Notes under the pieces: generated by a model
What the model was told of the DNA's origin: nothing
Seen by the model: only the letters and a program-made list of their open reading frames with translations
Database searches by the model: none
DNA from: Caulobacter sp.
GTDB lineage: Bacteria; Pseudomonadota; Alphaproteobacteria; Caulobacterales; Caulobacteraceae
Reading direction: 5' to 3'
Length of the DNA stretch: 64,000 nt
Assembly (NCBI GenBank): GCA_030678995.1
Contig: JAUXTQ010000038.1
Coordinates: 1-64,000 of the forward strand
Shown here: piece by piece, positions 1,061-36,248 of the stretch
Position numbering within the stretch: the first letter of the stretch is position 1
How the letters are laid out: every line of letters begins with the position of its first letter
Position numbers and translations under genes: made by a program

Positions 1061-1235
1061 AAGGCGCAAGACCAGTTTCGCCGCCGAGCCATATTTTCCA
1101 GATTACAGTGTTATTCCTAAAATTACCGACGCGCCTTATCCGTTGTCTAAACTCATGCTTGAGTTTTGGTGGGCAGATGGCGCAACTGATTCTCCATAAA
1201 TTCAGCATTACAACTGGCAATTGAAACTGAATGCT

Positions 1236-1266
1236 GGGAATTGCCCCCATTTTGGGGGCAATGTCC
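1236..1266. terminator. GC-rich hairpin in the gap before the che operon
   Basis: ATTGCCCCCA (1240-1249) and TGGGGGCAAT (1253-1262) are perfect inverted arms around a TTT loop. The pairing extends imperfectly outward to GGGA and TCCC. No T-run follows, so it is not a canonical intrinsic terminator in either direction. It could end the upstream gene, act as an operator, or shape the che mRNA leader. The remainder of the 1061-1417 gap is AT-richer at 1090-1215 and is the likely promoter region, but I see no clear sigma-70 boxes. Confidence 0.4.
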
Positions 1267-1417
1267 CCGATTTGTGACCAATGTTGCGAGCTCCTTTAAA
1301 GTAAACGCGAAAATCTGCCGTCATCAGCGTCGAGTCGGCGCCAAGGCCATCGGCGCGCTCGCCCGACCTGGCCGAGGCGCGGCGACCCGAACGCGGGGAC
1401 ATCCGGGGACATCAGTC

Positions 1418-3106
1418 ATGCCGGAAATGCAGGGGATCGCGGTCATGGCCGAAGACTACGCAGTGAGCGAACGGCTCGACTTCATGAAGCTGGACGGCGC
1501 GGCGCGCGAAGCGATCCGATCGCTCCGCCCCCTGATCCAGGAAGAGATAAAACCGGCGCTCGACGCATTTTACGCCCAGGTGCGTAATTTCCCCGAGACC
1601 CGGAAACATTTTTCCAGTGACAGCCACATGGCGGCGGCCGCCGACCGTCAGCGACAGCACTGGGACATCATCGCATCCGGCGACTACGGCGAGTCCTATG
1701 TGAACGCCGTGCGGGCGATCGGTCAGGTCCACGCCCGGATCGGCCTGGAGCCGCGCTGGTACATCGGCGGCTACGCCCTGCTGACCGAGCATCTGGTGAA
1801 GGCGGTGATCCGCAAGGCCTGGCCCAAGGGCTCGGTGTTCGCCAACCGGGGAGATCCGGACAAGACGGGCCACATGGCGGCCAGCCTGATCAAGGCCATC
1901 CTGCTCGACATGGACTTCGCCATCTCCGTGTATCTCGAGACGCTGGAAAGCCGGCGCAAGGAAGAAGAGGCCGTTCGTCAGGCCACCGAGCATCAGCAGA
2001 CGCTGGTGGTCGAGGCGCTCGGCGCCGCCCTGGCCAAACTGGCGGCGGGCGACCTCGCCTCGCGGCTCGACGAGGACGTGTCTCCGCAATTCCAGAAGCT
2101 CAAGGACGACTACAACGCGGCCATCACCACGTTGCAGGACGCCATGCGGTCGGTCGCCGATTCGACCGACGGCCTGCGGACGGGCACCGACGAAATCGCC
2201 ATGGCGTCTGACGACCTCTCCCGGCGCACCGAACAGCAGGCCGCCAGTCTGGAAGAGACCGCCGCGGCGCTCGACGAACTGACCGCTACCGTGAAGAAGG
2301 CCGCGTCCGGCGCCCGGCAGGCGTCGGACCTGGTTTCCACCGCCCGCGGCGAGGCCGAGCACTCCGGCGACGTCGTTAAGGATGCGGTCTCCGCCATGGG
2401 GCAGATTGAGAAGTCATCGAACCAGATCGCCCAGATCATCGGCGTCATCGACGAGATCGCCTTCCAGACGAACCTTCTGGCCCTGAACGCCGGCGTCGAG
2501 GCGGCCCGGGCCGGCGACGCCGGGCGCGGGTTCGCCGTGGTGGCCTCCGAGGTTCGAGCCCTGGCGCAGCGCTCCGCTGAGGCCGCCAAGGAGATCAAGG
2601 GCCTGATCTCGGCCAGCACCTACCAGGTGGGCGAGGGCGTGAAGCTCGTCGGCGAGACGGGCGACGCCCTGCGACGGATCATTGAACGGGTCGGGGAAAT
2701 CGACTCGCTGGTCTCGGAAATCGCGGCCTCCTCGGCAGAGCAGGCGACGGCGCTCAACGAGGTCAATACCGCCGTCAATCAGATGGACCAGGTGACGCAG
2801 CAGAACGCGGCCATGGTCGAGCAATCCACTGCGGCAACCCATTCGCTCAAGTCGGAAACCGGTGAGCTGGCGCGCCTGTTGCAGCAGTTCACCCTCGACG
2901 ACCAGCCGCGCCAGTCGCGCCGCCCCGCCGCCCCCGCCCCCGCCGTCGCCAGCCGACCGGCCGCGGTGCCGGCCGCCTACGCCGGCTCGGCGCCCAAGCC
3001 CTCGGTCCTGGCCGCCCGGGAACGTCTGAACGCCTTCATGTCCAAGCCCGTCACCCGCGGGGCGACGGCGCTCAAGGCCGACCCCGACGGTTGGGAGGAG
3101 TTCTGA
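1418..3106 (+). CDS. Soluble globin-coupled methyl-accepting chemotaxis protein
   Basis: This 562-residue chemoreceptor has no membrane segments. Residues about 20-180 form a protoglobin domain: the motif IGQVHARIGLEPRWYIGGY carries the expected proximal haem His (His105 from this start). A HAMP-like stretch (LAKLAAGDLASRLDEDV) follows, then the long coiled-coil signalling domain with the hairpin tip EIAFQTNLLALNAGVEAARA, which docks CheA and CheW. The protein ends in GWEEF, which fits the x-W-x-x-F peptide that tethers CheR and CheB in adaptation-competent receptors. It therefore probably senses O2 or another haem ligand and is methylated. ATG 1418 is preceded by GGGGA; ATG 1445, preceded by AGGGGA, is an equally good start. 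It opens the che operon and overlaps the next gene by one base. Confidence 0.93.
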   Translation: MPEMQGIAVMAEDYAVSERLDFMKLDGAAREAIRSLRPLIQEEIKPALDAFYAQVRNFPETRKHFSSDSHMAAAADRQRQHWDIIASGDYGESYVNAVRAIGQVHARIGLEPRWYIGGYALLTEHLVKAVIRKAWPKGSVFANRGDPDKTGHMAASLIKAILLDMDFAISVYLETLESRRKEEEAVRQATEHQQTLVVEALGAALAKLAAGDLASRLDEDVSPQFQKLKDDYNAAITTLQDAMRSVADSTDGLRTGTDEIAMASDDLSRRTEQQAASLEETAAALDELTATVKKAASGARQASDLVSTARGEAEHSGDVVKDAVSAMGQIEKSSNQIAQIIGVIDEIAFQTNLLALNAGVEAARAGDAGRGFAVVASEVRALAQRSAEAAKEIKGLISASTYQVGEGVKLVGETGDALRRIIERVGEIDSLVSEIAASSAEQATALNEVNTAVNQMDQVTQQNAAMVEQSTAATHSLKSETGELARLLQQFTLDDQPRQSRRPAAPAPAVASRPAAVPAAYAGSAPKPSVLAARERLNAFMSKPVTRGATALKADPDGWEEF

Positions 3107-3399
3107 TGTCGGCCCAGGCCGTGTCGCTTCCCCTGCCCGCCCGGCTGGACCTCAAGGCGGCCGCACCGCTTCGCGATGACCTGCTCGCCGTGCGTGGCGC
3201 GCCTGTCACGCTGGATGGGTCGGCCGTGCTCCAGCTCGGCGCATCGGGCCTGCAGGTGTTGCTGGCCGCCGCCGAGACCTGGCGCGCGGAAGGCCTGGAC
3301 TTCGGCATCGTCGATCCGTCCGCCGCCTTCCTGGAGGGATTGCGGCAGATGGGAGCCAGTTCGTCGTCACTCGCCGTTTCGGGAGCGCTTCCCCAATGA
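3106..3399 (+). CDS. STAS-domain protein of the che operon
   Basis: This 97-residue protein is a single STAS domain. It has the strand-helix pattern (LPLPARLDLKAAAPLRDDL, VTLDGSAVLQLGASGLQVLL) shared with anti-anti-sigma factors. In place of the D-S-S-G-L phosphorylation loop it reads L-G-A-S-G-L, so regulated phosphorylation is doubtful. The ATG overlaps the receptor stop (TGATG), with GGAGG seven bases upstream, so the two are translationally coupled. STAS genes occupy this position in other alphaproteobacterial che operons. A role in partner binding within the array is an inference. Confidence 0.8.
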   Translation: MSAQAVSLPLPARLDLKAAAPLRDDLLAVRGAPVTLDGSAVLQLGASGLQVLLAAAETWRAEGLDFGIVDPSAAFLEGLRQMGASSSSLAVSGALPQ

Positions 3400-3761
3400 A
3401 GCAGACCATTCTGACCGTCGATGACTCCCGGACCATGCGGGACATGCTGCGCCTGGCGCTGGTTGCGGCCGGCTACCGGGTGATCGAGGCGATCGACGGC
3501 GTGGACGGCCTCCAGGTCCTGACCGGTGAAAAGCCCGACGTCATCATCACCGACATCAACATGCCCAATCTCGACGGGTTCGGCTTCATCGAGGCCGTGC
3601 GCAAGGACGTCGCCTGGCGCGGAACGCCGATCCTCGTCCTGACCACCGAGAGCGACGCCGAGAAGAAGGCGCGCGCGCGGGACGCCGGCGCCACGGGATG
3701 GATCGTCAAGCCTTTCAGCCCCGACAAGCTGGTCCAGGCCATCCGTCGCGTGGCGGCCTAG
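3396..3761 (+). CDS. cheY: Chemotaxis response regulator CheY
   Basis: This 121-residue single receiver domain has all the catalytic residues visible: acidic pair Asp9-Asp10, phospho-acceptor Asp53 in IITDINMP, Thr in LVLTTES and Lys in WIVKPFS. It should receive phosphate from CheA and act on the flagellar switch or serve as a phosphate sink. It overlaps the STAS gene by four bases (ATGA) and is followed by cheA after 12 bases. Its position corresponds to CheYI of the C. crescentus major locus. Which of the several CheY proteins here binds the motor cannot be read from sequence. Confidence 0.95.
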   Translation: MKQTILTVDDSRTMRDMLRLALVAAGYRVIEAIDGVDGLQVLTGEKPDVIITDINMPNLDGFGFIEAVRKDVAWRGTPILVLTTESDAEKKARARDAGATGWIVKPFSPDKLVQAIRRVAA

Positions 3762-3773
3762 GAGGCGAACGCC

Positions 3774-5993
3774 GTGGACGAGATGGAAGCAATCAAGGCG
3801 ACCTTCTTCCAGGAGTGCGAGGAGCTGCTCGCCGACCTGGAAGTCGGCCTGCTGGCCATGCAGGCGGGGCCGGCCGACGGCGAGACCGTCAACGCCGTCT
3901 TCCGCGCGGTGCATTCGATCAAGGGTGGCGCCGGCGCCTTCGGCTTCGAGGGTCTCGTCCGCTTCGCTCACGTCTTCGAAACGCTGATGGACGGCCTGCG
4001 ATCGGGGAAGATTGAACAGTCTTCCGACCTCGTCGCAGCTTTGTTGCGGGCCGCCGACCTGCTGGCCGACCTCGTCGAGGCCGCCCGTGGCGGGGCCGAG
4101 GCCGAGGATGACCGCACCGGCGCCATGGCCGCCGAACTCCAGGTCCTCATCGAAGGCGGGGAGTCCGCCGGGTCCATGTCGGCGCCGGCCGCCGGGGAAG
4201 CGGCCGGGGAACTGGATGCCCCCTTCTCGTTTCAGCCGCTGGGCGCGTCCTCGCCCTGCGAGGCGGAAGCGCCCTTCACGCCGCTCGCGGTTCTGCCGCT
4301 GGATGGCCCGGCCGGCGACGCCGGTCCCGTCGCCTGGTCGATCGCCTTCAGGCCGCGGGCGAGTCTCTTTCACAACGGAAACGAGCCGGCCCTGATCCTG
4401 AGGGAGCTGGAGCGACTCGGCCCGGCGACGATCACCCTCGACGCCTCGTCTGTTCCGCCGCTGGCCTCGCTGGATCCCGAAGCCTCGTGGCTGAGCTGGG
4501 AAATCCTCCTGACGGCCAGTTGCGAGGAAACGGAAATCCGGGAGGTCTTCGAATTCGTCGATGGCGACTGCGACCTGTCGATCTCCCGAGCGGGCGAAGA
4601 CGCGCCGGCCGAGGCGGACACGGACGCCGCCTTCGCCGCCCTTCTGGCCAGCATTCAGGACCCGCCGGCCGCCGCGGTCGATCCGGACGTCGCTCCGCCC
4701 GTGATGGCTCCGCCGGTGGTCGCCGCGCCGGTCTCCCGGCCCGTCGTCGCCAAGGCTTCCACCGACCCGCAGGTCGCGGCGCCCCAGGCCACCATCCGGG
4801 TCGATCCCGAACGGATCGACCGGCTGATCGATCTGGTCGGCGAACTGGTGATCAACCAGGCGATGCTGGCCCAGCGGGTCATGGAGAGCGGCCTCTCGCC
4901 GTCGTCGGCCGTCTCGGTCGGTCTCGACGATCTCGAACAGCTGACCCGGGAAATCCAGGAAAGCGTGATGGCCATACGCGCCCAGCCGGTCAAATCGGTG
5001 TTCCAGAGGATGCCGCGGCTGGTGCGGGAAACAGCCGCCATGACCGGAAAGCAGGTGCGGCTGGTCACCGACGGCGAGAACACCGAGGTCGACAAGACGG
5101 TCATCGAGCGGCTCGCCGAGCCGATCACCCACATGATCCGCAACGCCATCGACCATGGCCTGGAGACGCCGGAGGCGCGGATCGCCGCCGGCAAGAACCC
5201 CGAAGGCATGGTGCGGCTGGCCGCTCTGCACCGGGGTGGCCGGATCGTCATCGAAGTCGCCGACGACGGGGCGGGGATCAACCGGCGCAAGGTCCTGGCC
5301 ATCGCCACCGACAGGGATCTGGTCGCCGCCGACGCGCAACTTTCCGACGAAGAGATCGACAATCTCATCTTCCTTCCCGGATTCTCGACCGCGACCCAGG
5401 TCTCGGACGTCTCGGGGCGTGGCGTCGGCATGGACGTCGTCAGGCGAAGCATCCAGGCCCTGGGCGGGCGCATCTCCATCGCGTCCCGGCCGGGGGAGGG
5501 ATCGACCTTCACCCTCAGCCTGCCGCTTACCCTGGCGGTGCTGGACGGGATGGTGATCGACGTCGCCGGCCACACCATGGTCGCGCCGCTGTCGGCCATT
5601 GTCGAAAGCCTGCGCCCCAAGCCCGAGGACGTTCGCCGGCTGGGACCGACCGGGATGGTCCTGGCCGTGCGCGACACGCACGTTCCGCTGCTGGACATCG
5701 GTTGTGTGCTGGGCTTCCGGACCGAGGCGCCCCCCGCCAGCGACCGCGTGGTGTTGCTGGTCGAGGCCGAGGACGGGTCCCGGGCGGCCCTGGTCGCCGA
5801 TGGCATCCACGGACAGCGCCAGGTGGTGATCAAGAGCCTTGAGGCCAACTATCGCCAGGTGCCGGGCATCGCCGCGGCGACCATCCTCGGGGACGGTCGC
5901 GTCGCGCTCATTCTCGATGTCGACGCCGTCATGACCCTGCGACCGCCCGGAGCCTCCCGCGCGGCCGAGTCCACCCTCATCGCCGCGGAATGA
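3774..5993 (+). CDS. cheA: Chemotaxis histidine kinase CheA
   Basis: This 739-residue kinase starts at GTG 3774, with GGAGG upstream in the CTAGGAGGCGAACGCC leader. It has an Hpt domain with phospho-acceptor His47 (AVHSIKGG). A long Ala/Pro-rich region (about 105-335) sits where P2 would be. The dimerisation domain ([17 protein letters not shown], about 345-410) follows. The HATPase has N box [12 protein letters not shown] and G boxes VADDGAG and GRGVGMDVV. The C-terminal CheW-like P5 domain spans about 605-725. It phosphorylates CheY and CheB under control of the globin receptor. It precedes cheW by 4 bases. The P2 region has an extra roughly 100-residue segment (about 180-280) that I cannot assign. 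Confidence 0.96.
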
Positions 5994-5997
5994 AGCC

Positions 5998-6465
5998 ATG
6001 ACCGATCCCGTCGAGCACTGTGTCAACGACATCTTCGAAATGATTTCCTTTCGCATCGGCGAGCAGGAGTTCTGCGTGGACATCATGGCGGTCCGTGAAA
6101 TCCGCGGGTGGGCGCCGGCCACGCCTCTTCCCCAGACGCCGTCCTACATGCGGGGGGTGATCAACCTGCGCGGCGCGGTGCTGCCGATCCTCGACCTGGC
6201 GGCCCGCCTCGAGCTGCCGTCCAGCGAGCCGTCGGCGCGCAGCGTCATCATCGTGATCGACGCCGGCGGTCGGCTGGTGGGTCTGCTGGTCGACGCCGTG
6301 TCGGACATCCTCAGCGTCTCGCGCGACGCCATCCAGCCGCCGCCGGACATCGCCTGCGACCCGGTGCGGAACTTCATCCGCGGCCTGATGTCCGTCGATG
6401 GACGAATGATCAGCCAGATCGCCGTCGAGCGCATTCTGCCGGAAGTGGAAACTCTCGCAGCATGA
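5998..6465 (+). CDS. cheW: Chemotaxis coupling protein CheW
   Basis: This 155-residue CheW fold couples receptors to CheA. Typical features are [20 protein letters not shown] at the N-terminus, [17 protein letters not shown] in the middle, and [13 protein letters not shown]. It lies four bases after cheA and overlaps cheR by four bases (ATGA), consistent with a fixed stoichiometry from one mRNA. The length matches the family. Nothing is unusual. Confidence 0.96.
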
Positions 6466-24197: not shown

Positions 24198-24767
24198 TCA
24201 GTTGAACAATGCGTCGATGTCGTTTTGGGAGAGCGCCCGATCGGGCGTCGCCGCGAGTGCTATGCCCTCCGCCCGCCGGTCCTCGATCCCGTCTGGCGGC
24301 GGGGCCTTGCGAAACCGCCGGTCAGGGCCGCAGTAGGCTGGGGCGGAGACGAAGGGACGCGTGTTCCGCGCCAGCCAGGATATCCGGTCGAGAAGGACGG
24401 CGGGGACGATGGGTTTCTTGATGAAGACGTTCACCCCGGCATCCCGGGCCCGGCGGATCCTTTCCAGCGGCGTGTGGCTGCTGGCGAGGACAACGGGTGA
24501 CGTGAAGTTTGGCTGATCCGGCCGGCTGCGAATGCGTTGTGTGAGGGTGATACCGTCCTCATCGGGCATGTCGGCGTCGATGATCAAAAGGTCGAACCTC
24601 GTCGTCGCCAGAAGATCTTGCGCCGCCAGCGCGCTGGCGCAGACGGTGGTGTTTCCGGCGCGAAACCCGCGCAATATCTCTTCAAGCAACCCCAGCGCCT
24701 GGTTGTTGTCATCGACCGCGAAGATGCTGACGGCGTTGAAATCGAGCCGTGACGTCGTGAGCGACAT
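24198..24767 (-). CDS. Response regulator with arginine/proline tail and FliM-like end
   Basis: In this 189-residue protein the receiver has the acidic pair in FAVDDNNQ, acceptor Asp in LLIIDADMPDEDG, Ser in VLASSHT and Lys in VFIKKPIV. The tail carries CGPDRRFRKAPPPDG and ends LSQNDIDALFN. It is the paralogue of the regulator at 9637, sharing tail layout as well as receiver. The last residues closely mimic the FliM N-terminal CheY-binding peptide. The arginine-rich segment resembles those proposed to bind c-di-GMP in Caulobacter Cle proteins. Confidence 0.85.
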   Translation of the reverse strand: MSLTTSRLDFNAVSIFAVDDNNQALGLLEEILRGFRAGNTTVCASALAAQDLLATTRFDLLIIDADMPDEDGITLTQRIRSRPDQPNFTSPVVLASSHTPLERIRRARDAGVNVFIKKPIVPAVLLDRISWLARNTRPFVSAPAYCGPDRRFRKAPPPDGIEDRRAEGIALAATPDRALSQNDIDALFN

Positions 24768-24781
24768 CCCCGGTTGCTCCC

Positions 24782-25132
24782 TCAGGGCCGATGCCGCGTT
24801 ACGGGTGCGGCCATCAGGAGATCCGCGGCGGCCTGGTCGATGCCGGCGCCCGCGATCGCCGGCCCGTTCAGCAGCGGGTCACTCGCCGGACTCTTCTGCG
24901 CCAGCGCGTCATCGAGCTGGCTGAGCCGCTGACCGACGATGTCTCCAAACGCGCAGGCTTCCAGCATGGCGCAAAAGCTCGCCTCGATCCGATCGATTGC
25001 GGCGACATCGCCCTGTCTCCAGAGCGCGAGGTCGGCGAGCCCCTGCTCCACCAATGACAGGAGACTGTCCGCAGCCGCACTGACGCCACCCCGGATGTCG
25101 GATGTGATGCGGCGCGCGCCGTCGGCGTCCAT
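24782..25132 (-). CDS. Small helical protein with CheZ-like active-site motif
   Basis: The protein has 116 residues and is predicted all-helical. Residues 61-70 read AFGDIVGQRL. In CheZ phosphatases the motif D-L-T-G-Q supplies the Asp and the catalytic Gln that dephosphorylate CheY; here Asp64 and Gln68 keep that spacing. It lies directly after cheY on the same strand, as expected for a partner. It is shorter than CheZ and lacks an obvious C-terminal CheY-binding helix. The same slot in operon 1 is held by the cheU-like gene. A phosphatase role is inferred. Confidence 0.6.
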   Translation of the reverse strand: MDADGARRITSDIRGGVSAAADSLLSLVEQGLADLALWRQGDVAAIDRIEASFCAMLEACAFGDIVGQRLSQLDDALAQKSPASDPLLNGPAIAGAGIDQAAADLLMAAPVTRHRP

Positions 25133-25133
25133 C

Positions 25134-25520
25134 TCAGAGCTCTCCGAGCACTGTGGTGAGCTTCTGGCGAAGCACCGCCAGATTGAACGGCTTGATGATG
25201 TAGTTGTTGACCCCCGCCTGCCGGGCGGCGACCACGTTCTCTGTCTTGGCTTCGGCGGTGACCATCACGAACGGCGTGGCGCGCGTGCGTGGATCGGCCC
25301 GAACGGCTTTCAAGAGCTCAAGCCCGGTCATCGGCGCCATGTTCCAGTCCGACAGGATCAGGCCGTAGCCGTTGGCGCGGATCAGCGCCAGGGCCGCCGG
25401 GCCGTCCGTGGCGTCGTCGATGTTGTGGAACCCCAGTTGTTCCATCAGCCCACGGATGATCCTGACCATCGTCTTGTAGTCATCCACCACGAGCACGTTC
25501 ATGGATTTGTCGACGGCCAT
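25134..25520 (-). CDS. cheY: CheY response regulator of cluster 2
   Basis: This 128-residue receiver has Asp13-Asp14, acceptor Asp58 (LILSDWNMAPMTG), Thr in VMVTAEA and Lys in NNYIIKPFN. MNVLVVDDYKTMVRIIRGLM is close to classical motor-type CheY. It heads the leftward group of cluster 2, divergent from the hybrid cheA, with an AT-rich 319-base promoter region between them. It should accept phosphate from that kinase. Confidence 0.93.
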   Translation of the reverse strand: MAVDKSMNVLVVDDYKTMVRIIRGLMEQLGFHNIDDATDGPAALALIRANGYGLILSDWNMAPMTGLELLKAVRADPRTRATPFVMVTAEAKTENVVAARQAGVNNYIIKPFNLAVLRQKLTTVLGEL

Positions 25521-25839: not shown

Positions 25840-28731
25840 ATGGGGGGCGCGTTGGACGATCTGGTTAGCGACTTCATCGCGGAGACGCGCGAAGGCCTGG
25901 AAGCACTCGACAGCGAACTCGTTCGCTTCGAACAACAACCCGATGACCCAGAAACGCTCAGCGGCATCTTTCGCCTGATGCATACGATCAAGGGGACCTG
26001 CGGGTTTCTTGGTCTCGGCCGGCTCCAGGCGCTGGCGCACGCCGCTGAAAGCGTCCTGGGCGCATTTCGCGACGGGGAGGCGGCCGTCACGCCGGCGGCG
26101 ATGTCCGCCATTCTCGAAGCAGTCGACGTTATCCGGGGACTGGTCGATGGCCTGGCTCAGTCTGGATCCGAGCCGGAGGGAAGCGACGAACCTCTGATCG
26201 CCAGGCTTGAAGCACTGCTTACGGCAGAGGTCGCGCCCTCGGCCAAGGTCGAACCGGGGCCGACATCCGGTCCCGCGAAAAGCCTGATCGAGCGGCTTGG
26301 GGGCGACGCGACCCTCGACGCCGCGGCCGAAATGGCAATTGTCCGGTTGCGGCAAGACCCCCAGGTCGGGCCGGCCCTGCTCGATCACGACGTCGATGCG
26401 CTGCAGACCGGGTTGCGAGATGGCCTGACGCGTCTTGCCCGCACCAGGTCCGGGCAGGAATCCCTGGAGGGATTCCTCGATGGCGCCGCGCCCGGTCTCC
26501 TGACGGTGGTCATGCGAGCGGTGTCTGTCGCACTGGGCGAACTGGACATTGACGACGAAACCATTGCCGACCTGACCGCGCTTGCCATGCCCGTCGAGCG
26601 GGCGGCGGCGCAGGAGGCGGCGGCCGCGCCGGAGGGCGTGGCGCCGCCAGCCAGGGTGATCGACAATCCGGCGGCCAGGCCCGCCGCAACCGCCCAGGGG
26701 GAGGGCGGCGCGCAGACCATTCGCGTCAGCGTCGACGCCCTGGAACATCTCATGACCGTGGTCAGCGAGCTGGTCCTGATCCGCAACCAGTTGATCCAGA
26801 CCCTGCGGCTGGTCCCTGAAAGTCCCTTCGCCGCGCCGCTCAACCGCCTGAACCAGGTGACGAGCGAACTGCAGGAAGGGGTCATGACCACCCGCATGCA
26901 GCCGATCAGCGGGGCCTGGGCGAAGCTGCCCCGTCTTGTCCGTGACCTGGCGAACGACCTCGGCAAGCGGATCGACCTCGTGATGGCGGGGCAGGAGACG
27001 GAGCTGGACCGCCAGGTCCTTGAGCTGATCAAGGACCCCCTGACCCACATGATCCGCAATGCCGCCGACCACGGGCTCGAAAGCCCGGCGGAAAGGCGGG
27101 CGGCGGGAAAGTCGGAGACCGGGCGCATCTCGTTGCAGGCCCGCCACGAGGGCGGCGCGATCGTCATCGAGGTGGCGGATGACGGGCGCGGCCTGTCGGC
27201 CGAGAAGATCCGGGCCAAGGCCATCGCGGCCGGGCTTCTGACCGCGGCGCAGGGGGAGCAGGCCTCCGACGCCGATGTGCGTCAGCTGGTCTTTCTGCCC
27301 GGCTTTTCGACGGCCGCGGAGGTTACCAACGTCTCCGGTCGCGGCGTCGGCATGGATGTCGTTCGCACCAACATCGAGAAGATTGGCGGCACCATCGAGG
27401 TGACCTCAGTCGAGGGAAACGGCGCTCGCTTCATCATCCGGATTCCCCTGACCCTGACCATCGTGTCGGCCCTTATCGTTGAATGCTGCGGCGAGCGGTT
27501 TGCCGTTCCGCAATCGTCCGTGGTCGAACTGGTCAGCGCCAGCGGCGGTTCAGGGCGGAGCGTGGAATACATCGAGGGCGCCGCGGTGCTGCGCCTGCGG
27601 GACCGACTGTTGCCCTTGGTTTCGCTTCAGAACCTGCTGCAACTCGAGGCTTCCGAAGAGGCGTCCGCCGAAGCCTGCATCGTCGTGACCCGCGTCGGAG
27701 CCTTCACGTTCGGCGTCATTGTCGACCGCGTGTTCGACATCGAGGAGATCGTCGTAAAGCCTGTCGCCACGGTCCTGCGGCACCTGCGGCTCTATTCCGG
27801 CGCGACCATTCTGGGCGACGGGTCGGTGATCCTGATCCTGGATCCGAAGGGAATGTCGGTCGAGGCCGGCGCGGGTCAGGTGGAAGGCACGGCCGCCGAA
27901 CCCGGCGAACTCGCGGCGGCAGCTGGCTCAACCGCAACCAGCGAGGCGCTGCTGATCTTCCGGGCCGGCCAGGACACGCTCAAAGCGGCGCCCTTGGTCG
28001 CGGTATCCCGAATTGAAGAGATCGACGCGAAGCAGTTCGAGCGGGTGGATGGCCGTACGGTGATCCAGTATCGCGGCCGGCTGATGCCGGTGGTCGATGC
28101 CGCGGTGGAACCGGCGAAGGCATGGGAGAACGGCTCGCGGCGCCCCCTTCTGGTGTTCACCCGGGACGAGCGGGCGGTCGGACTTCTGGTCGATGAGATC
28201 GTCGACACGGTTACCTGCGCGGTCGAAGGCGACCTTGGTTCAGGCGGCAGCGCGACCCGAGGCAGCCTGATTATCGGCGGCAACGCGACCGAGCTGATCG
28301 ACGTCGACTATTTCTGGCGCAAGGCCTTCGGCGGTGAGGCCCCGCCGGCGCCAGCGATTGAAGCGACCACGGCGGCGCCGAAGACTACCCGCCGTCTGCT
28401 GGTTATCGACGCCAGCCCCTTCTCCCAGCTTCTGCTCCAGCCTCTTCTGTCGCAGGCCGGCTACGAGGTGGTCGTGGCGCCGGACGCCGAGAGCGCCATG
28501 GCCCTCTACCGCGAGGGCAATCGTTTCCACCTCATCATGGCTGACACCCAGCCGGGCGCCCCGGCGACCCAGGCCTTCGCCCGCACGCTGGCGCAGGCGT
28601 CCGACTGGCACGGTACGCCCTTGCTGAGCCTGGGGCTGACGCCGTCACTGGGCCGGGAACCGACCTTCGACACAACCACCCTGCTGGCCACGGTCTCGGC
28701 GGCTCTCGACGCTGAACGGAGCGCCGCGTGA
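25840..28731 (+). CDS. cheA: Hybrid CheA with two CheW-like domains and a degenerate receiver
   Basis: This 963-residue kinase has an Hpt with acceptor His48 (LMHTIKGTCG), a linker, a dimerisation helix pair (ALEHLMTVVSELVLIRNQLI) and an HATPase with N box HMIRNAADHGLE and G boxes VADDGRG and [10 protein letters not shown] first CheW-like domain spans about 540-675 (ALIVECCGERFAVPQSSVVE) and a second spans about 700-825. A C-terminal receiver-like domain lies at about 845-960. The receiver keeps a candidate acceptor Asp (LIMADTQPG), but the acidic pair is reduced to VIDAS and the conserved Lys is missing. It probably phosphorylates the divergent CheY and long regulator. Confidence 0.93.
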   Translation: MGGALDDLVSDFIAETREGLEALDSELVRFEQQPDDPETLSGIFRLMHTIKGTCGFLGLGRLQALAHAAESVLGAFRDGEAAVTPAAMSAILEAVDVIRGLVDGLAQSGSEPEGSDEPLIARLEALLTAEVAPSAKVEPGPTSGPAKSLIERLGGDATLDAAAEMAIVRLRQDPQVGPALLDHDVDALQTGLRDGLTRLARTRSGQESLEGFLDGAAPGLLTVVMRAVSVALGELDIDDETIADLTALAMPVERAAAQEAAAAPEGVAPPARVIDNPAARPAATAQGEGGAQTIRVSVDALEHLMTVVSELVLIRNQLIQTLRLVPESPFAAPLNRLNQVTSELQEGVMTTRMQPISGAWAKLPRLVRDLANDLGKRIDLVMAGQETELDRQVLELIKDPLTHMIRNAADHGLESPAERRAAGKSETGRISLQARHEGGAIVIEVADDGRGLSAEKIRAKAIAAGLLTAAQGEQASDADVRQLVFLPGFSTAAEVTNVSGRGVGMDVVRTNIEKIGGTIEVTSVEGNGARFIIRIPLTLTIVSALIVECCGERFAVPQSSVVELVSASGGSGRSVEYIEGAAVLRLRDRLLPLVSLQNLLQLEASEEASAEACIVVTRVGAFTFGVIVDRVFDIEEIVVKPVATVLRHLRLYSGATILGDGSVILILDPKGMSVEAGAGQVEGTAAEPGELAAAAGSTATSEALLIFRAGQDTLKAAPLVAVSRIEEIDAKQFERVDGRTVIQYRGRLMPVVDAAVEPAKAWENGSRRPLLVFTRDERAVGLLVDEIVDTVTCAVEGDLGSGGSATRGSLIIGGNATELIDVDYFWRKAFGGEAPPAPAIEATTAAPKTTRRLLVIDASPFSQLLLQPLLSQAGYEVVVAPDAESAMALYREGNRFHLIMADTQPGAPATQAFARTLAQASDWHGTPLLSLGLTPSLGREPTFDTTTLLATVSAALDAERSAA

Positions 28732-29285
28732 GCGCGGAGGGCGCATCCGGTATTGACCTGCAAGGCGCCGCCGAGGGTCTCGTCTCGGTGCGCATTGGCG
28801 GCCAGGCGTTCGGAATTCCGGTGCTCCAGGTCCAGGACGTCATCGCACAGGGAACCACCAACCGGGTGCCGCTCGGACCGCCCGAGGTCGCGGGATCCCT
28901 GAATCTTCGCGGTCGAATCGTCACCGCCATCGACATGCGCCGGCGCCTCGGCATGGAGCCGCGGCGGTCCGCCGACGGGCACATGTCGGTCATCGTCGAA
29001 CGCCATGGCGAGCTCTACGCCCTGCTGGTGGACGATGTCGGCGATGTGCTGTGGCTTCCCCCGACCTTGCATGAAGCGGCGCCGTTGACGCTGTCCGCGG
29101 AATGGCGAGGGCTTTCCCTGGGGCTCTATCGGCTGGAGGGGGAGCTGCTGCTCGTCCTCAACATCGCCGAGGTGCTCACGCTCTCCCGCCAGGCCCCCGC
29201 CTCCCCGGCCGCCGCCGTGGCGAGAGACGCCGCCAGACCAGAACAGGAGCCCGCCGTCGCCGACGGCGCCCTGGTGACCCGATGA
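28728..29285 (+). CDS. cheW: CheW coupling protein of cluster 2
   Basis: This 185-residue CheW fold includes GLVSVRIGGQAFGIPVLQVQ, VAGSLNLRGRIVTAIDMRRR and YALLVDDVGDVLWL, plus a disordered Ala/Pro-rich C-terminus of about 30 residues. It starts at GTG overlapping the cheA stop. With the two CheW-like domains of the kinase it should link the haem receptor to the array. Confidence 0.93.
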   Translation: MSAEGASGIDLQGAAEGLVSVRIGGQAFGIPVLQVQDVIAQGTTNRVPLGPPEVAGSLNLRGRIVTAIDMRRRLGMEPRRSADGHMSVIVERHGELYALLVDDVGDVLWLPPTLHEAAPLTLSAEWRGLSLGLYRLEGELLLVLNIAEVLTLSRQAPASPAAAVARDAARPEQEPAVADGALVTR

Positions 29286-29313: not shown

Positions 29314-31335
29314 ATGACCAACACATCCGCCGCCAGGCAGCAGTATGAGGCGACCGACGCCGTTGGCTCGGCGCCCAGTCTTTTCGAGCGCCTCGGGGGC
29401 GCCGCCGCGGTTGAGGGGGCCGTCGAGCTGTTCTATCGAAAGGTCCTCGCTGATCCTCGCCTCAGCGGCTTCTTCAGCGGCGTGAACATGAAGCGCCAGA
29501 CGGGTCGCCAGCGGGCGTTCCTGACCATGCTGATGGGCGGACCGGCGGCCTATGAGGGGCCGGGCCTTCGGGCCAGCCATCGGCGGCTCGTCGATATGGG
29601 TCTCAACGACGTCCACTTCGACGCGGTGGTGAAGCACCTGGCCGACACGCTGCGGGATCTGGGGGCCGCCGAGGCCGACATCGCCGAGGTCGGGACGCTG
29701 GCGGAGTCCGCTCGCGCGGACGTGCTCGATCGCGGAGGCGAGGCCGCCGCGAGCCAGGTGGCCGTGGCGCGCCCGGGCGCGGCCAGCTCAGGGGTCGATC
29801 AGACCGAACTGCGGCGGTTGCAGCAGATGCTCGACGAGGCGCCCTTCAATGTGATGCTCTGCGACCTGGACGGGTTCGTCGTCACCTACGCGAACCAGGC
29901 GACCATCCGCACGCTTCGGTCCATCGAACACCTGCTTCCGATCAAGGCTGAGGCGCTCGTCGGCACGAGCATCGACCTGTTCCACAAGAACCCGGCCCAC
30001 CAGCGGCGGATGCTGGCCGATGAGCGTAACCTGCCCCACCAGGCGACGATCGAGATTGGCGGCGAGTACCTCGATTTGCTGGTCACACCGGTCCGCAATC
30101 CTGACGGACGCTATGCCGCGGCGATGGCGACCTGGTCGATCGTGACCGAGCGGGTCAAGGCGGAGCGCGACAACCGCCGCCTGCTGCAGATGCTCGATGA
30201 CATGCCGTTGAACGTCATGCTCTGCGACCCGGAAGAGTTCCGCATCACCTATGTCAACAAGCGCTCCATCGAGACCTTGAGGCCGCTCCAGCATCTGCTT
30301 CCGGTGTCCGTCGACAAGCTGGTGGGACAGTGTTTCGACATCTTCCACAAGAACCCGGCCCATCAGCGCCGGATCGTCGGCAACCCGGACGCGCTGCCCC
30401 ACCGGGCCATGATCAAACTGGGTGATCATGATCTGGACCTCAACGTCGCGCCGCTTCGCGACGAGGCCGGCGGCTATCTCGGCGCCATGCTGACCTGGTC
30501 AGTGGTGACCGAGCAGATGCGGTTCATCGGGAGGGTCACCGAGTTCAGCAAGGAGGTCGCTGACGCCGCCGACAGCATGCGGGGCATGGCCCAGACCATG
30601 GCGGCCAGCGCCGAAGAGAGCAGCAACCAGGCGGCGGCGGTCGCCGCCGCATCCGACGAAGCCTCCTCCAATGTCCAGACGGTCGCCTCCGCGGCCGAAG
30701 AGCTGTCGGCTTCGATCCAGGAGATTACCCGCCAGGTCGAACAGTCGAGCAGCATCTCGAGACAGGCGGTGGACGAGGCGCTCTCGACCGACGAGACGAT
30801 GCGCGGCCTGGCCGACTCCGCCGAGCGCGTCGGCGAAGTGGTCGGATTGATTCAGGAGATCGCCTCGCAAACCAAGCTTCTTGCGCTCAACGCGACGATT
30901 GAGTCCGCCCGCGCCGGCGAAGCCGGCAAGGGGTTCGCGGTGGTCGCGTCGGAGGTCAAGAACCTGGCCGATCAGACGGCCAAGGCGACCAAGCAGATCG
31001 CCGAACAGGTCGGCTCCATCCAGAAGGCGAGTCAGGCCGCGGTGGCCGCGATCGAGAGCATCCGGCGCACCATCGAACAGGCGAACGAGGCCTCTTCGGC
31101 CATCGCCAGCGCCGTTGAGCAGCAGGGCGCGGCTACCCAGGAGATTACGCGAAACGTCCAGGAAGCCGCGACGGGCACACGGGAGGTGTCGTCGAACATC
31201 TCCGGCGTGACACAGGCGGCGACGGAAAACGCCCTTGCCGCCGCCGACATGCTGCAGGCTACGCACGGGCTCGCGGGCAAGGCCCAGGAGCTGGACACGC
31301 TACGCTCCGAGATCGAAGCCTTCATGAAGCAGTAG
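29314..31335 (+). CDS. Soluble chemoreceptor: truncated haemoglobin, two PAS domains, MCP signalling domain
   Basis: The 673 residues contain no membrane segment. Residues about 20-120 are a group-1-like truncated haemoglobin: SLFERLGG start, [15 protein letters not shown] with Tyr41 in the distal B10 position, and proximal His89 in LRASHRRL. Two near-identical PAS domains follow (about 165-285 and 290-405), each containing [10 protein letters not shown]. The MCP domain has the tip [20 protein letters not shown]. It lacks the C-terminal CheR-binding pentapeptide seen on the first receptor. It probably senses O2, NO or redox state. ATG 29314 has GGAGAGA upstream. Confidence 0.92.
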
Positions 31336-31368: not shown

Positions 31369-32208
31369 TCAGGCCGTTCTGGCGAGGGCCGCCGGAACGG
31401 TGGACGGCCGGTAGAGGCCCGGGGCGCCGGGGGTCAGCTCGAAAGCTTCGGTGATTCCGATGACGGTCTCGGCGCTTCCGAGGAACAGCGCCCCATGGTC
31501 GGCCAGCGCCGTTGCAAGGTCGGCGAAAATGGCCCGCTTCTGCGGCACGTCGAAGTAGATCAGGACGTTGCGGCAGAAGATGACGTCGAAGGTCCCCAGG
31601 CCCGCTGCTCCCTGCAGCAGATTCTGGGGGCGGAACGAGACCATCTGTTGCAGCGCCGGGGAGACCCGCCAGGCGGCGCCTTCTTGCGTGAACCAGCGAT
31701 TTCGCCGGGCCTCTGACAGACCCCGGTTGACCTCGAAGTCCGTGTAGAGGCCGGATCGGGCTTTTGCGAGAATGGACTCGGACATGTCGGTGGCAACGAT
31801 TTCCGTCCGCCAGCCCGCCAGCGCCCCGCCGGCCTCCTGCAGCAGCATGGCCACGGAATAGGGTTCCTGACCGCTCGAACAGGCGGCGCACCAGATGCGC
31901 AGGCTCCGGCTCGCGCGTCGGGCCTCGATCAGGCCCGGCAGCACCCGTTCGGCCAGCAGGTTGAAGGGCGTGCCATCCCGGAAGAAGAAGGATTCGTGGG
32001 TGGCCATGGCGTCGACGCAGCGCCGCAGCAACACCTCCGGCGCGCCCAGCCTCAATCGGGTGAGAAGCGCCGGAACGTCTGGCAGTCCTTCCGCCCGGGC
32101 AATCGGGGCGAGCCGGCTGAGCACCAGGTAAGCCTTGTCCGGCGTCAGGGCGAGGCCGGACCGCAGCCGCACCAGCTGGCGGAAATGGTCGAAATCAAGG
32201 TCTGTCAT
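31369..32208 (-). CDS. cheR: Chemotaxis methyltransferase CheR of cluster 2
   Basis: This 279-residue CheR has an N-terminal helical domain (FRQLVRLRSGLALTPDKAYL, TRLRLG) and a methyltransferase core with [19 protein letters not shown]. Late motifs are FDVIFCRNVLIYFD and LFLGSAETV. The usual SAM motif A-G-C-S-S-G-x-E is C-A-A-C-S-S-G-Q-E here, within normal variation. ATG 32208 overlaps the cheB stop as ATGA. Its target is presumably the adjacent haemoglobin receptor. Confidence 0.94.
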   Translation of the reverse strand: MTDLDFDHFRQLVRLRSGLALTPDKAYLVLSRLAPIARAEGLPDVPALLTRLRLGAPEVLLRRCVDAMATHESFFFRDGTPFNLLAERVLPGLIEARRASRSLRIWCAACSSGQEPYSVAMLLQEAGGALAGWRTEIVATDMSESILAKARSGLYTDFEVNRGLSEARRNRWFTQEGAAWRVSPALQQMVSFRPQNLLQGAAGLGTFDVIFCRNVLIYFDVPQKRAIFADLATALADHGALFLGSAETVIGITEAFELTPGAPGLYRPSTVPAALARTA

Positions 32209-33278
32209 CGCACCAGTTCCATTGTCCTGCGCAGCCATGGTCCAATTTCCGCAAGGGGCAGGACGCCCTGCGCAAGACCCGTCGCCGCGGCGGCTCCGGG
32301 CATTCCCCAAACGACGCTGGAAGCCTCGTCCTGAACAACAAACCGGCCGCCGGCGCGGGCCACGGCTTCGCAGCCCTTCGCCCCATCCGAACCCATGCCG
32401 GTAAGGATGGTCGCGACCACGCCCCGGCCGTAGGCCAGGGCGGCGCTGCGAAGGAGTGGATCGACCGCCGGCCGGCAGAAGTTTTCCGGTGGATTCTGAT
32501 TCAGCCGTACGACAGCCGGACCGTTCTCCCGATCAACGGTCATGTGCCAGCCGCCGGGCGCGACATAGCATCGGCCGGGCTGGACGATCTCGCCGTCCCG
32601 GCCTTCGGCGCAGGGCCGGTCGCCGGCGCGCGACAGCTGTTCGGCGAGCAGCGCCGTGAAGGTCGCGGGCATGTGCTGGGTCAGCAGGATGGGTTGCCGC
32701 ACGGCGCCCTTGAGGGCCTCGAAGAGCTTGAGCAGCGCGGGCGGCCCGCCGGTCGAGGCGCCGATGGCCAGCACTTCGGGAACGGCCTGGCCCGGGCGGG
32801 AGGCGGGCGGCGGCGTACACGCCGGCGTCGCGATCGCCCTGCGGCGGGGCGCCAGGGCGCGGAGGCGGGCAAGAAGGTCGATGCGAAAGGCCTCGGCGCC
32901 GGCGATGCCGTTCTCGGGCTTGGCCACATAGTCCGCCGCCCCGAGCTGCAATGCCTTCAGGCTGATCTCGGCGTTTCGGCGGGTCAGGGTTGAGACCATG
33001 ATCACGCGCACCTGCGGGTACTCCGCCACGATCCGCTGAAGGGCCGTCAGGCCGTCCATGACCGGCATCTCGATGTCGAGCACCACCAGGTCGACCGGGT
33101 GGCGCGACAGTTCACGAAGGGCGAGCTCGCCATTGGAGGCCGTGGCGACAACCGTCAGGTCATCTTCGGCCTCGACTTGGCGCGCAATGAGCCCCCGGAC
33201 GACCGCCGAATCATCGACAATCAAAACTCGCGTGGCGTTCTTCGGTGCGATCGGGGCAGGGGGCAAGGGACCGTTCAA
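32205..33278 (-). CDS. cheB: Chemotaxis methylesterase CheB of cluster 2
   Basis: This 357-residue protein has a receiver with the Asp pair in VLIVDDSAVVRGL, acceptor Asp in LVVLDIEMPVMDG, and a methylesterase domain. The catalytic Ser is in IGASTGGPPAL, the His in [12 protein letters not shown] and the Asp in TGMGSDGAKG. The only start in frame before the receiver is TTG 33278; a TGA lies eight codons further upstream. It precedes cheR with translational coupling and is transcribed toward the receptor. Confidence 0.94.
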   Translation of the reverse strand: MNGPLPPAPIAPKNATRVLIVDDSAVVRGLIARQVEAEDDLTVVATASNGELALRELSRHPVDLVVLDIEMPVMDGLTALQRIVAEYPQVRVIMVSTLTRRNAEISLKALQLGAADYVAKPENGIAGAEAFRIDLLARLRALAPRRRAIATPACTPPPASRPGQAVPEVLAIGASTGGPPALLKLFEALKGAVRQPILLTQHMPATFTALLAEQLSRAGDRPCAEGRDGEIVQPGRCYVAPGGWHMTVDRENGPAVVRLNQNPPENFCRPAVDPLLRSAALAYGRGVVATILTGMGSDGAKGCEAVARAGGRFVVQDEASSVVWGMPGAAAATGLAQGVLPLAEIGPWLRRTMELVR

Positions 33279-33551: not shown

Positions 33552-34382
33552 ATGAGTGGCGGCTCGTTCGGCATCACTGGAGAGCAGATAAGGGCAGCGC
33601 GGGCGCTCGCGCGCCTTGAGCAGGCGGAGCTGGCTCGCCTGTGCGGCCTCAGTCTCGAGACGATCAAAAGGCTGGAGCGGATCCGCGGGCCCGTTGACGC
33701 GAACACCCGCACGCTTAACGCGATCATTGAGGCGCTCAGCGGCCTGGGCATCCAGTTCGACGGATGCGAGGATGGTGGTGTCGGCGTCTGTCGTCTCCCG
33801 GCGCGGATGGCGCGGGAGGCGGGCCATCGCCACGCGCCGCCTCCGAAGCGCGAGACCCAACCGCTGCGTCGGCTGATCTTCCACAGCGTGGCGAACGTGG
33901 CGTCCAGGCAGGACTTCAAGGCGTCCATTGACGAGATCAGCCGGTCGTCCGCCATACAGAACGAGCAGCTTGGCATTACCGGCGTTCTCTTCTCCTCCAA
34001 CGGCCGGTTCCTGCAGGTTATTGAAGGGCCGAAGGATAGTGTGAGGCAGGCTTTTGGGGCCATCTCATGCGACCCGCGGCATTCGATGGTGACCGTCCTC
34101 CAGGATCGCGACGTCGCCATCCGGCTGTTTTCTGACTGGAGCCTGTGTTGCGGACGGTTCGCTTCGGACGATGCAATCCTGAAGGGGGAGCCTTCGCTGG
34201 ACGATGGCTTTCGGCCCGAGACACTTTCGCCCGCCGGAGCGCTAGGTCTGCTGAGTGTCGTGCGGGATATGCAGGCCGCTCCCCCCAGGACCAACCGTCC
34301 GGTCTCCGGCGTCTGTCCGCTCGCCGACAACTGCCTGGACGAAACATGCTCGGCCAGCAACGGCTTCCATGGCGCGGCATGA
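33552..34382 (+). CDS. XRE helix-turn-helix protein fused to a BLUF domain
   Basis: The protein has 276 residues. Residues 8-65 form a Cro/XRE-type helix-turn-helix (ITGEQIRAARALARLEQAEL, CGLSLETIKRLERI). Residues about 105-200 form a BLUF flavin domain: RRLIFHSVANVASRQDFKAS, NEQLGITGVLFSSNGRFLQV, DPRHSMVTVLQDRD, FSDWSL. The flavin-contact Asn137 and Gln155 are present, but the photochemically essential Tyr is Phe110 (codon 33879-33881). A Cys-bearing tail ends the protein (GVCPLADNCLDETCS). It could be a light- or redox-responsive DNA-binding protein. The GGGGGGAG upstream supports ATG 33552. Confidence 0.88.
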   Translation: MSGGSFGITGEQIRAARALARLEQAELARLCGLSLETIKRLERIRGPVDANTRTLNAIIEALSGLGIQFDGCEDGGVGVCRLPARMAREAGHRHAPPPKRETQPLRRLIFHSVANVASRQDFKASIDEISRSSAIQNEQLGITGVLFSSNGRFLQVIEGPKDSVRQAFGAISCDPRHSMVTVLQDRDVAIRLFSDWSLCCGRFASDDAILKGEPSLDDGFRPETLSPAGALGLLSVVRDMQAAPPRTNRPVSGVCPLADNCLDETCSASNGFHGAA

Positions 34383-34427: not shown

Positions 34428-36248
34428 ATGGGTTCTTACCCTGTCGTTCAGAAAACCGTCCCTCCGGTCAATCGGGGCCCGACGGGGCATGACGGGACCA
34501 GAATGGCGCGTTCTCCGTCCCTTCCAAATCAGGGCACCAGTGTTCCGGGTGCGGGAGAGCGTGCGGCATGGAGCAGCTGGTTCGTGAGCGGGACTGATCA
34601 GACTGACAATGTTCCTGGCTTGCTGGTCAGCGCGCAACAGCGGTGGCGCAACGCCCGGGCGGCGCTCCGTCGGAGGATCGCGGTCAATGCCGGTCTGCCG
34701 GACCGGGCCGAAGACATCCTGGCCAGCATTCTGAACATTTCCGACGAAGGCCTGATCGTTGTTGGACCCGACCTCAGGATCCTGGTGTTCAGCGACGGCG
34801 CCGGCGCCATTTTCGGCTACAGGCCCAGCGAGGTGTTGGGCCGACCCCTCCATGTCCTGGTGCCTCTGGAACATCGCGCCGCCCACGGGGGTCACATGCG
34901 CGGCTTCGCGGCCGAGGGGGGCGCCAGCCGCCGAATGGTCGGCCGCCAAACCATCCACGGCCTCACCAAGACAGGCGCGATCATTCCGCTGGAGGTTGGC
35001 CTGTCGAAGCTGGGTTCGGGAGAGGAGGCCCTGTACACGGCCTTCATTCGCGACATTTCAGATCGCGTCGCCGCCGAGGCAGCACTGACGCGGGCGGCGG
35101 CCAGCGCCAACGCGGCCAATGACGCCAAGAGCGCCTTCCTGGCGACCATGAGCCACGAAATACGCACCCCGCTGAACGGTGTGCTCGGGATGGCGCAGGC
35201 CATGGCGCGGGATGATCTGCCAGCGCGCCAAATGGAACGCCTGGAGGTTATCCGCCAGTCGGGGGAGACTCTCCTGGTCATCCTCAATGACCTGTTGGAT
35301 CTGGCGAAGATCGAGGCAGGCAAGTTGGAAATCGAAGACGCGGAGTTCGATCTGGTCGAGCTCGTGACCGCGTCTCACGCCACCTTCGCCGCCCTGGCGG
35401 CCCAGAAGGGGCTCGACCTTGATTTGCGCCTCCTTGATCGGGCCCGTGGGGTTTATCTGGGCGATCCCCTGCGCATTCGCCAGATCCTTCACAACCTCAT
35501 CTCAAACGCGATCAAGTTCACCGACGCCGGCTCGGTCCGGATAACCGCAGGCCGCCGCGCCGGTGTTCTGAACTTCATCGTCAAGGATACCGGCATCGGC
35601 ATGCCGCCCGAGCGGATTCCGGATCTGTTTCGCAAGTTCGAGCAGGTGGATGCGTCCAGCACGCGGCGCTTCGGCGGCACCGGTCTTGGCCTGGCGATCT
35701 GCCGCGATCTGGTGGGGCTGATGGGCGGCCACATTGCCGTCGATAGTCGGCCGGGCCGGGGAACCCTGTTTCGCGTCACTCTCCCGCTGTCGAAGATCGC
35801 ATCGCAAAGCCGCCCGACGAGCCCGCCCCTGGCGGCACAGCCGGCCGCCAACCAGGCGTTGCGGATTCTGGTTGCCGAGGACAACGCCACGAACCAACTG
35901 GTCATCCGGACCCTGCTCAGCCAGGTCGGCATCGAGCCGGATGTGGTTGCCGACGGGCAGGCGGCGGTCTCCGCCTGGGAAGACGGCGAGTACGACCTCA
36001 TCCTGATGGACATTCAAATGCCGCGGATGGACGGCGCCACCGCGGCCGGGATCATTCGCGAGCGGGAGGCGAGAGACGGGCTTCCCAGGACCCCGATCCT
36101 TGCCCTTACAGCCAACGCCATGACTCACCAGCTGGCCGACTATCGTCAGGCCGGCATGGATGGGCACGTCGCCAAGCCAATCGAGGTCGATAAACTCTTC
36201 CACGCCATCGAAGCGGCTGTCACGCCCACGCCGGCCGGGCCGCCTTGA
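34428..36248 (+). CDS. Hybrid sensor histidine kinase (PAS-HisKA-HATPase-REC)
   Basis: This protein has about 606 residues and is probably cytoplasmic. A PAS domain spans about 95-220 (ILNISDEGLIVVGPDLRILV). A HisKA has phospho-acceptor His in FLATMSHEIRTPLNGVLGMA. The HATPase has N box NLISNAIKFTD and G boxes KDTGIGM and GGTGLGLAICRDL. A C-terminal receiver has acceptor Asp in YDLILMDIQMPRMDG and Lys in GHVAKPIE. The start is uncertain: ATG 34428 is used, ATG 34503 is a possible later start. It follows the BLUF gene by 45 bases and may take part in the same signalling route. No output domain is attached. Confidence 0.9.
   Translation: MGSYPVVQKTVPPVNRGPTGHDGTRMARSPSLPNQGTSVPGAGERAAWSSWFVSGTDQTDNVPGLLVSAQQRWRNARAALRRRIAVNAGLPDRAEDILASILNISDEGLIVVGPDLRILVFSDGAGAIFGYRPSEVLGRPLHVLVPLEHRAAHGGHMRGFAAEGGASRRMVGRQTIHGLTKTGAIIPLEVGLSKLGSGEEALYTAFIRDISDRVAAEAALTRAAASANAANDAKSAFLATMSHEIRTPLNGVLGMAQAMARDDLPARQMERLEVIRQSGETLLVILNDLLDLAKIEAGKLEIEDAEFDLVELVTASHATFAALAAQKGLDLDLRLLDRARGVYLGDPLRIRQILHNLISNAIKFTDAGSVRITAGRRAGVLNFIVKDTGIGMPPERIPDLFRKFEQVDASSTRRFGGTGLGLAICRDLVGLMGGHIAVDSRPGRGTLFRVTLPLSKIASQSRPTSPPLAAQPAANQALRILVAEDNATNQLVIRTLLSQVGIEPDVVADGQAAVSAWEDGEYDLILMDIQMPRMDGATAAGIIREREARDGLPRTPILALTANAMTHQLADYRQAGMDGHVAKPIEVDKLFHAIEAAVTPTPAGPP

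Follow-up and report, generated by a model that had tools for sequence, protein, structure and literature searches.

The 64,000-nucleotide stretch of Caulobacter DNA analysed here (the window) encodes a chemoreceptor, P0001, in which a truncated haemoglobin and two PAS domains precede an MCP signalling domain (Table 1). By its sequence it is a soluble, cytosolic protein, and we lean towards reading it as a cytoplasmic receptor for O2 or a similar diatomic gas, in which PAS haems signal while the globin modulates the response as a tethered module. Truncated haemoglobins are also found inside the CheA kinases of related systems, and the CheA encoded beside the receptor appears to contain a decayed one.

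Table 1. Features of the receptor gene and of the chemotaxis genes around it (positions in the window; AF2, AlphaFold2 model)
Feature	Position	Strand	Evidence
Receiver-domain protein	24198..24767	-	Pfam
CheY-like single receiver	25134..25520	-	Pfam
CheA (Hpt, H-kinase_dim, HATPase, CheW)	25840..28731	+	Pfam
Putative decayed remnant of a truncated haemoglobin in CheA (residues 149-262; B10 Tyr and F8 His absent)	26284..26625	+	hhalign, AF2, Foldseek, alignments
CheW	28728..29285	+	Pfam
Globin-PAS-PAS-MCP receptor gene (P0001, 673 aa, ATG start)	29314..31335	+	ORF list, Pfam
Group-1 truncated haemoglobin domain, residues 22-124 (Tyr41, Gln62, Gln66, His89)	29377..29685	+	Pfam, PDB sequences, residues, fold
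Low-complexity linker, residues 141-165	29734..29808	+	pLDDT < 50, composition
PAS1, Aer2 type, presumed haem ligand His224, Trp274	29812..30165	+	Pfam, NCBIfam, PDB sequences, own profiles, alignments
PAS2, Aer2 type, presumed haem ligand His345, Trp395	30172..30528	+	NCBIfam, PDB sequences, own profiles, alignments
MCP signalling domain, residues 483-639	30760..31230	+	Pfam
CheR	31369..32310	-	Pfam
CheB	32205..33278	-	Pfam

The receptor and its genetic neighbourhood

The open reading frame proposed in an earlier note on this DNA was recovered with the same start and end, and the note's combination of a truncated haemoglobin, a PAS pair and an MCP tail in one soluble protein agrees with both the Pfam domains and the Kyte-Doolittle profile. 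Pfam assigns the N-terminal domain to Bac_globin (E 2.8e-17, 63.5 bits against a cut-off of 21) and the C-terminal one to MCPsignal (E 2.8e-32), and the PAS matches are PAS_8, in two stretches, and PAS_4. The boundaries of PAS1 (residues 167-284) and PAS2 (287-405) were taken from profiles built in this analysis, with the profile positions on the open frame renumbered from the ATG. No transmembrane segment is apparent in P0001 (the highest 19-residue mean is 0.97), and a HAMP domain is not among its Pfam matches at E<=0.01. The two PAS domains had been called near-identical, which they are not: 62 of 121 residues (51%) and 228 of 363 bases agree.

The globin is a group-1 truncated haemoglobin and is predicted to bind haem. 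Its closest solved sequence is Chlamydomonas THB1 (4xdi, E 1.5e-32), followed by other group-1 truncated haemoglobins, and where the predicted structure aligns with 6cii in the fold comparison, the identity is 49%. A profile search of residues 20-120 scored this region as a truncated haemoglobin, with Bac_globin covering 22-124 and THB1 nearest, and this Pfam score and the nearest structures bear out the group-1-like assignment made before. All pocket residues are present, namely Tyr41, Gln62, Gln66 and His89, which we take to be helix positions B10, E7, E11 and F8, with Tyr B10 distal and His F8 proximal. Tyr41 and His89 stand where the earlier note had placed them and occupy invariant columns in an alignment of 13 fused globins. 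The Tyr/Gln/Gln/His set is common to THB1, HbN and cyanoglobin, from which the window's globin differs in forming part of a signalling protein. Because Protoglobin (PF11563) gives no match to P0001 at E<=0.01, an assignment to the HemAT/protoglobin type was dropped, and the distinction that the note had drawn from this type holds. Weak PF11563 matches near the 25-bit cut-off occur in two relatives, L055 (27.8) and L084 (23.4). The window's genome encodes a second truncated haemoglobin, L001 (G000:C10:124256-124600), which is standalone and lies far from the receptor globin in the tree described below.

Among solved sequences, both PAS domains are closest to 6ceq, 3vol and 4hi4. Each of these is a haem PAS domain from Aer2, and in the fold comparison the window's domains are 33-38% identical to them. 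Residues 163-403 match the NCBIfam model of Vibrio Aer2 with E 1.3e-67 and 228.7 bits, the curated whole-protein cut-off of this model being far higher at 1200. Both domains carry an FHKNPAHQR motif and a Trp. We placed H234, the haem residue of Pseudomonas aeruginosa Aer2, on the FH of a ten-residue stretch by counting back from a Trp which we assume to be W283, and in this register His224 and His345 are the presumed ligands, with Trp274 and Trp395 as their partners. In a first PAS alignment all 17 alphaproteobacterial rows, taken from globin-fused and neighbouring receptors, keep the FH motif, and the 16 of them that are readable at the Trp all keep it; a second alignment has FH in each of its 11 alphaproteobacterial rows. 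Since the FH rows include some without the second His of the motif, this fits FH as the ligand. The available text of a 2026 aerotaxis review names H234 as the residue through which P. aeruginosa Aer2 binds haem, reports tandem haem PAS domains for Aer2 of Vibrio cholerae and V. vulnificus, and describes work on Aer2 responses in E. coli lacking its own receptors (PMC13401364). At the FH position nine myxococcal PAS rows have His in four cases and Glu in two and are gapped in three. Glu is found in the two readable rows of myxococcal PAS1, three others being gapped there, and the sole PAS domain that our profile finds in the receptor of G1154 is of the Glu type, so that not all receptors built in this way have PAS haem.

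PAS1 and PAS2 of the window receptor thus probably bind haem b, and together with the group-1 globin three haems are predicted. The earlier note had left a choice between PAS-bound redox and a second haem. The Aer2 PAS matches and the kept His and Trp favour haem, and the FAD redox part of that suggestion is disfavoured.

The CheA and CheW genes lie 5' of the receptor gene on the same strand, CheR and CheB follow downstream on the opposite strand, and two receiver genes stand upstream, likewise on the opposite strand. Between the two receiver genes there is an open frame of 115 residues (24782-25132, minus strand) with no Pfam match, which by eye is possibly CheZ-like. CheB is neighboured by a gene for an HTH protein with a BLUF (blue-light, FAD) domain (33552-34382, plus strand; Pfam), and downstream of it a PAS hybrid histidine kinase with a receiver is encoded (34428-36248, plus strand; Pfam). 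A second chemotaxis set of MCP, CheA and CheW was found on the plus strand at about 1190-6462 (CheA-CheW at about 3762-6462; own profiles), and the genome therefore has at least two CheA.

Truncated haemoglobins in related receptors and kinases

Matches to the window globin were found in 81 of 398 genomes (window's order). The nearest fused relative among the fetched loci belongs to G561, a genome of the same family and another genus, and its receptor is 74% identical to that of the window over the globin and over PAS2-MCP. The other fused receptors from alphaproteobacteria are one with a globin, four PAS domains and an MCP domain (L053, same contig as L084), a partial globin-PAS-PAS receptor (L054/L078), a partial globin-PAS protein (L146), and one of the order PAS-PAS-MCP-globin, in which the truncated haemoglobin is C-terminal (L095, 556-2445, plus strand). 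The scan of the genome collection, in which 80 loci were kept of 157 relatives among 268 stretches, gave six fusions by our own profiles; in nine of the kept loci these profiles saw no second domain in a long frame. From the phylum sample (398 genomes), G989, G1026, G1025 and G481 were dropped as candidates for fusions, since their frames are long by chance reading only; loci of G481 and G1025 were among those fetched. The plasmid search returned 4,326 records with some match and none with one place covering 80% of P0001. In five loci from other Pseudomonadota (L221, L230, L269, L270, L271) a single open frame encodes two truncated haemoglobins in tandem.

The globin is matched in 75 of 146 sampled Myxococcota genomes, and 11 of the matched genomes have frames of 579-867 residues in which the match reaches about 94-110 bits; five of these were examined. 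L298-L301 encode globin-PAS-PAS-MCP receptors with CheA and CheW genes adjoining, and G1154 (L261, at a contig end) encodes, by our own profile, a globin-PAS-MCP receptor. In the gammaproteobacterial sample at least 101 of 274 genomes have a globin match, and in five long frames (L262, L302-L305) our profiles found no second domain. Gammaproteobacterial receptors with PAS, Bac_globin and MCPsignal are named in the available text of PMC6194562.

Globins are also found in CheA. Sixteen of 20 fetched loci (L055-L070; own profiles), all 20 preselected for a globin match in a long frame, have a globin between the Hpt domain and the CheA core. With five further loci (L177, L244, L245, L247, L248) the total among fetched loci is 21 in 20 genomes, all of them alphaproteobacterial, the window's class. 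In L056 and L057 the CheW domain of CheA is interrupted by a second globin. Pfam supports this for L134, a locus that shares its contig with L057, and it also matches Bac_globin in L055 and L140. A globin on CheW was seen once among the fetched loci, in G561 (own profile and Pfam). A CheA core match at E<=1e-30 is present in 64 of 133 genomes of the window's class. The 55 window-type CheA (54 complete matches at >=54% identity plus a partial one, some cut at the 5' side) include seven with a globin by profile, eight with the window's own. We dropped the idea that the globin replaces a folded P2 domain: globin-free CheA of the window type mostly have, by eye, a low-complexity linker at this site, and insertion into a linker fits better. 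Tyr and His are both kept in 10 of 18 aligned CheA-embedded globins.

We interpret residues 149-262 of the window's CheA as a globin fold in which the haem ligands have been lost. This region is invisible to Pfam and to our own globin profile. When the window and G561 CheA regions were aligned to the fused globins, hhalign gave a probability of 95.4, an E of 1.9e-8 and a score of 52.7 (44.7 for the window region by itself), against 16.0 for reversed rows, 21.1 for the best of 150 column shuffles and 14.8 for the best of 51 other CheA linkers. The AF2 model shows the helices in truncated-haemoglobin order with helix F missing, and its pLDDT, averaged over ten residues, is about 80-90 here except for 56-58 near residues 201-220. 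The CheA model as a whole has a mean pLDDT of 71.8 and a pTM of 0.43 from three sequences, and because two of the three alignment rows are CheA with intact globins it is biased towards a globin-like result. In the Foldseek search with this model CheA P1 ranks first and truncated haemoglobins appear from rank 15, the best of them being a weak match (3aq5, E 7.4e-3, TM by target 0.73) alongside which designed four-helix bundles score. Among 41 genomes of the genus only the window's own has the remnant region, so this CheA looks accessory in the genus, and the window genome may have acquired its chemotaxis cluster. The decayed domain and the CheA and CheW globins of related systems lie outside what the earlier note had read. 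The window's CheA has no receiver at E<=0.01 (Pfam), and its last 110 residues look, by eye, like a decayed one; the globin-bearing CheA of L055, L134 and L140 end in a receiver domain (Pfam).

A quick tree was built from 136 globins over 124 columns without bootstrapping; it has long branches, and 56 of its 133 inner branches are open. It joins the window globin to both globins of G561 (support 97). Four changes of the receptor label and four of the CheA label are needed on this tree, and at least two of each are forced by well-supported branches. Repeated fusion of the globin, or fusion and loss, is likely; the weak resolution of the tree means that the fusions cannot be dated or ordered.

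Possible roles of the globin

A tethered globin beside signalling PAS haems is the reading we prefer. Binding of a ligand at the PAS2 haem would be passed by a helix into the MCP helices and would so switch CheA; the AF2 model predicts a helix at residues 400-419, after PAS2 and towards the MCP part. The globin, on its floppy linker, probably does not push on the MCP helices, and would more likely capture or deliver O2, or destroy NO, beside the PAS haems. In HemAT a rigid helix couples the globin to the signalling part. The linkers that flank fused globins (50 in number, one of which, in the G561 receptor, has 278 residues and contains further PAS domains) have on average 12% hydrophobic letters, compared with 33% in the globins, and such low-complexity linkers of variable length favour a tethered module over rigid coupling of the HemAT kind, even if docking could still let the globin signal.

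That the truncated haemoglobin itself is the main gas sensor, with its change relayed through the PAS domains to the MCP helices as in HemAT-like direct sensing, seems to us rather unlikely. Its pocket is intact, and the related receptors that were examined still have the globin, among them the myxococcal ones whose PAS1 lost the His. However, the connecting linker is of low complexity, has a predicted pLDDT below 50 in P0001 and varies in length between sister receptors (77 residues in L053, 25 in L054), and in L095 the globin sits at the other end of the protein. We give similarly little credit to a shielding role outside the signal path, in which the globin would convert NO to nitrate and protect the PAS haems; truncated haemoglobins are slow without a reductase partner. 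A Tyr/Gln/Gln pocket in a group-1 truncated haemoglobin would suit this role, as would the tethering of the globin beside haem PAS domains in receptors and beside receptors in the array. Globins as NO dioxygenases are reviewed in PMC3820574, as far as its available text goes.

Still less probable is FAD-based energy taxis, with PAS domains that bind FAD and report the redox state. Soluble tandem-PAS FAD receptors do exist in alphaproteobacteria (AerC of Azospirillum), and the AF2 model of residues 1-420 (mean pLDDT 66.3, pTM 0.34, four sequences in the alignment) has the FAD PAS proteins NifL and MmoS among its best fold matches, alongside DosP and Aer2, so that the fold alone cannot separate haem from FAD. 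The solved structures nearest in sequence are nevertheless Aer2 haem PAS domains, and both window domains keep the His and the Trp. We consider it very improbable that the receptor globin is a relic which only docks to other proteins and no longer binds gas, as the decayed CheA globin may do. The window's CheA domain has lost the haem ligands, and 8 of the 18 aligned CheA-embedded globins do not have both of them, but the receptor globin keeps every pocket residue and is 74% identical over 119 residues to its counterpart in another genus.

With the tethered module as the preferred reading of the receptor, a broader proposal can be put forward, tentatively and with doubts outweighing confidence. 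The alphaproteobacterial truncated haemoglobin may be a movable, flexibly tethered subunit of chemoreceptor arrays, placed on the receptor, on CheW, in the gap between Hpt and dimerisation domains of CheA, or in the CheW domain of CheA. Gas binding may then affect the kinase complex itself, with no classical receptor in between, and in several lineages, including the window's CheA, the haem ligands would be lost and a structural or docking domain would remain. In the window's CheA this remnant may act as a spacer or docking domain.

Relation to known systems

According to the available text of PMC6194562 (2018), receptors with PAS, Bac_globin and MCPsignal domains were identified in silico and are rare (7 proteins in 8,075 complete genomes); one of them is from Phenylobacterium zucineum, and aerotaxis was predicted. 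The window architecture is therefore not new, and its receptor is a member of the kind described there by prediction. The earlier note's distinct sensor class stands as regards structure and falls as regards novelty. In that text the receptor Cc_4972 of Corallococcus coralloides is, like P0001, soluble and built from the same three domain families, and it belongs to a CheA-CheW-MCP cluster with CheB and CheR, as in the window. The myxococcal L298 receptor, 34% identical to that of the window over 696 columns at full length, is presumably of the Cc_4972 type. Myxococcal receptors differ in PAS1, which where readable lacks the presumed haem His kept in the window, and the four myxococcal CheA examined (L298-L301) show no globin, whereas the window's CheA has the decayed one.

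Aer2 of P. aeruginosa, V. cholerae and V. vulnificus shares with the window receptor PAS domains of the haem type, in which the window keeps the presumed ligand His and the Trp. It has HAMP domains around the PAS domains, whereas the window receptor has none and has an added truncated haemoglobin; a full Aer2 assignment was dropped because HAMP is missing from P0001. HemAT and other globin-coupled sensors are likewise soluble, with an N-terminal globin and an MCP domain, but the window globin is a Bac_globin and not a Protoglobin, and a flexible linker and PAS domains stand between it and the MCP domain. The direct O2 chemoreceptors known so far sense through protoglobin, hemerythrin or a PAS haem, as far as the available texts of PMC12442639 and PMC13401364 go. 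The literature searched, with subscription papers mostly outside its scope, showed no globin-CheA or globin-CheW fusion; the main text of a paper on truncated haemoglobin evolution (PMC4720485) makes no mention of fused, chimeric or chemotaxis, and the word 'truncated' is absent from the available text of PMC13401364.

A receptor that combines a truncated haemoglobin with two haem PAS domains would have gas sites of two types, three in all, and these might extend the sensing range or make the response to one gas depend on another. The globins in CheA and CheW would be the stronger departure, if the proposal is true, with the kinase complex itself binding gas. The decayed copies form a natural series from haem-competent to haem-free at one position of CheA, and they make the question of haem versus scaffold directly testable.
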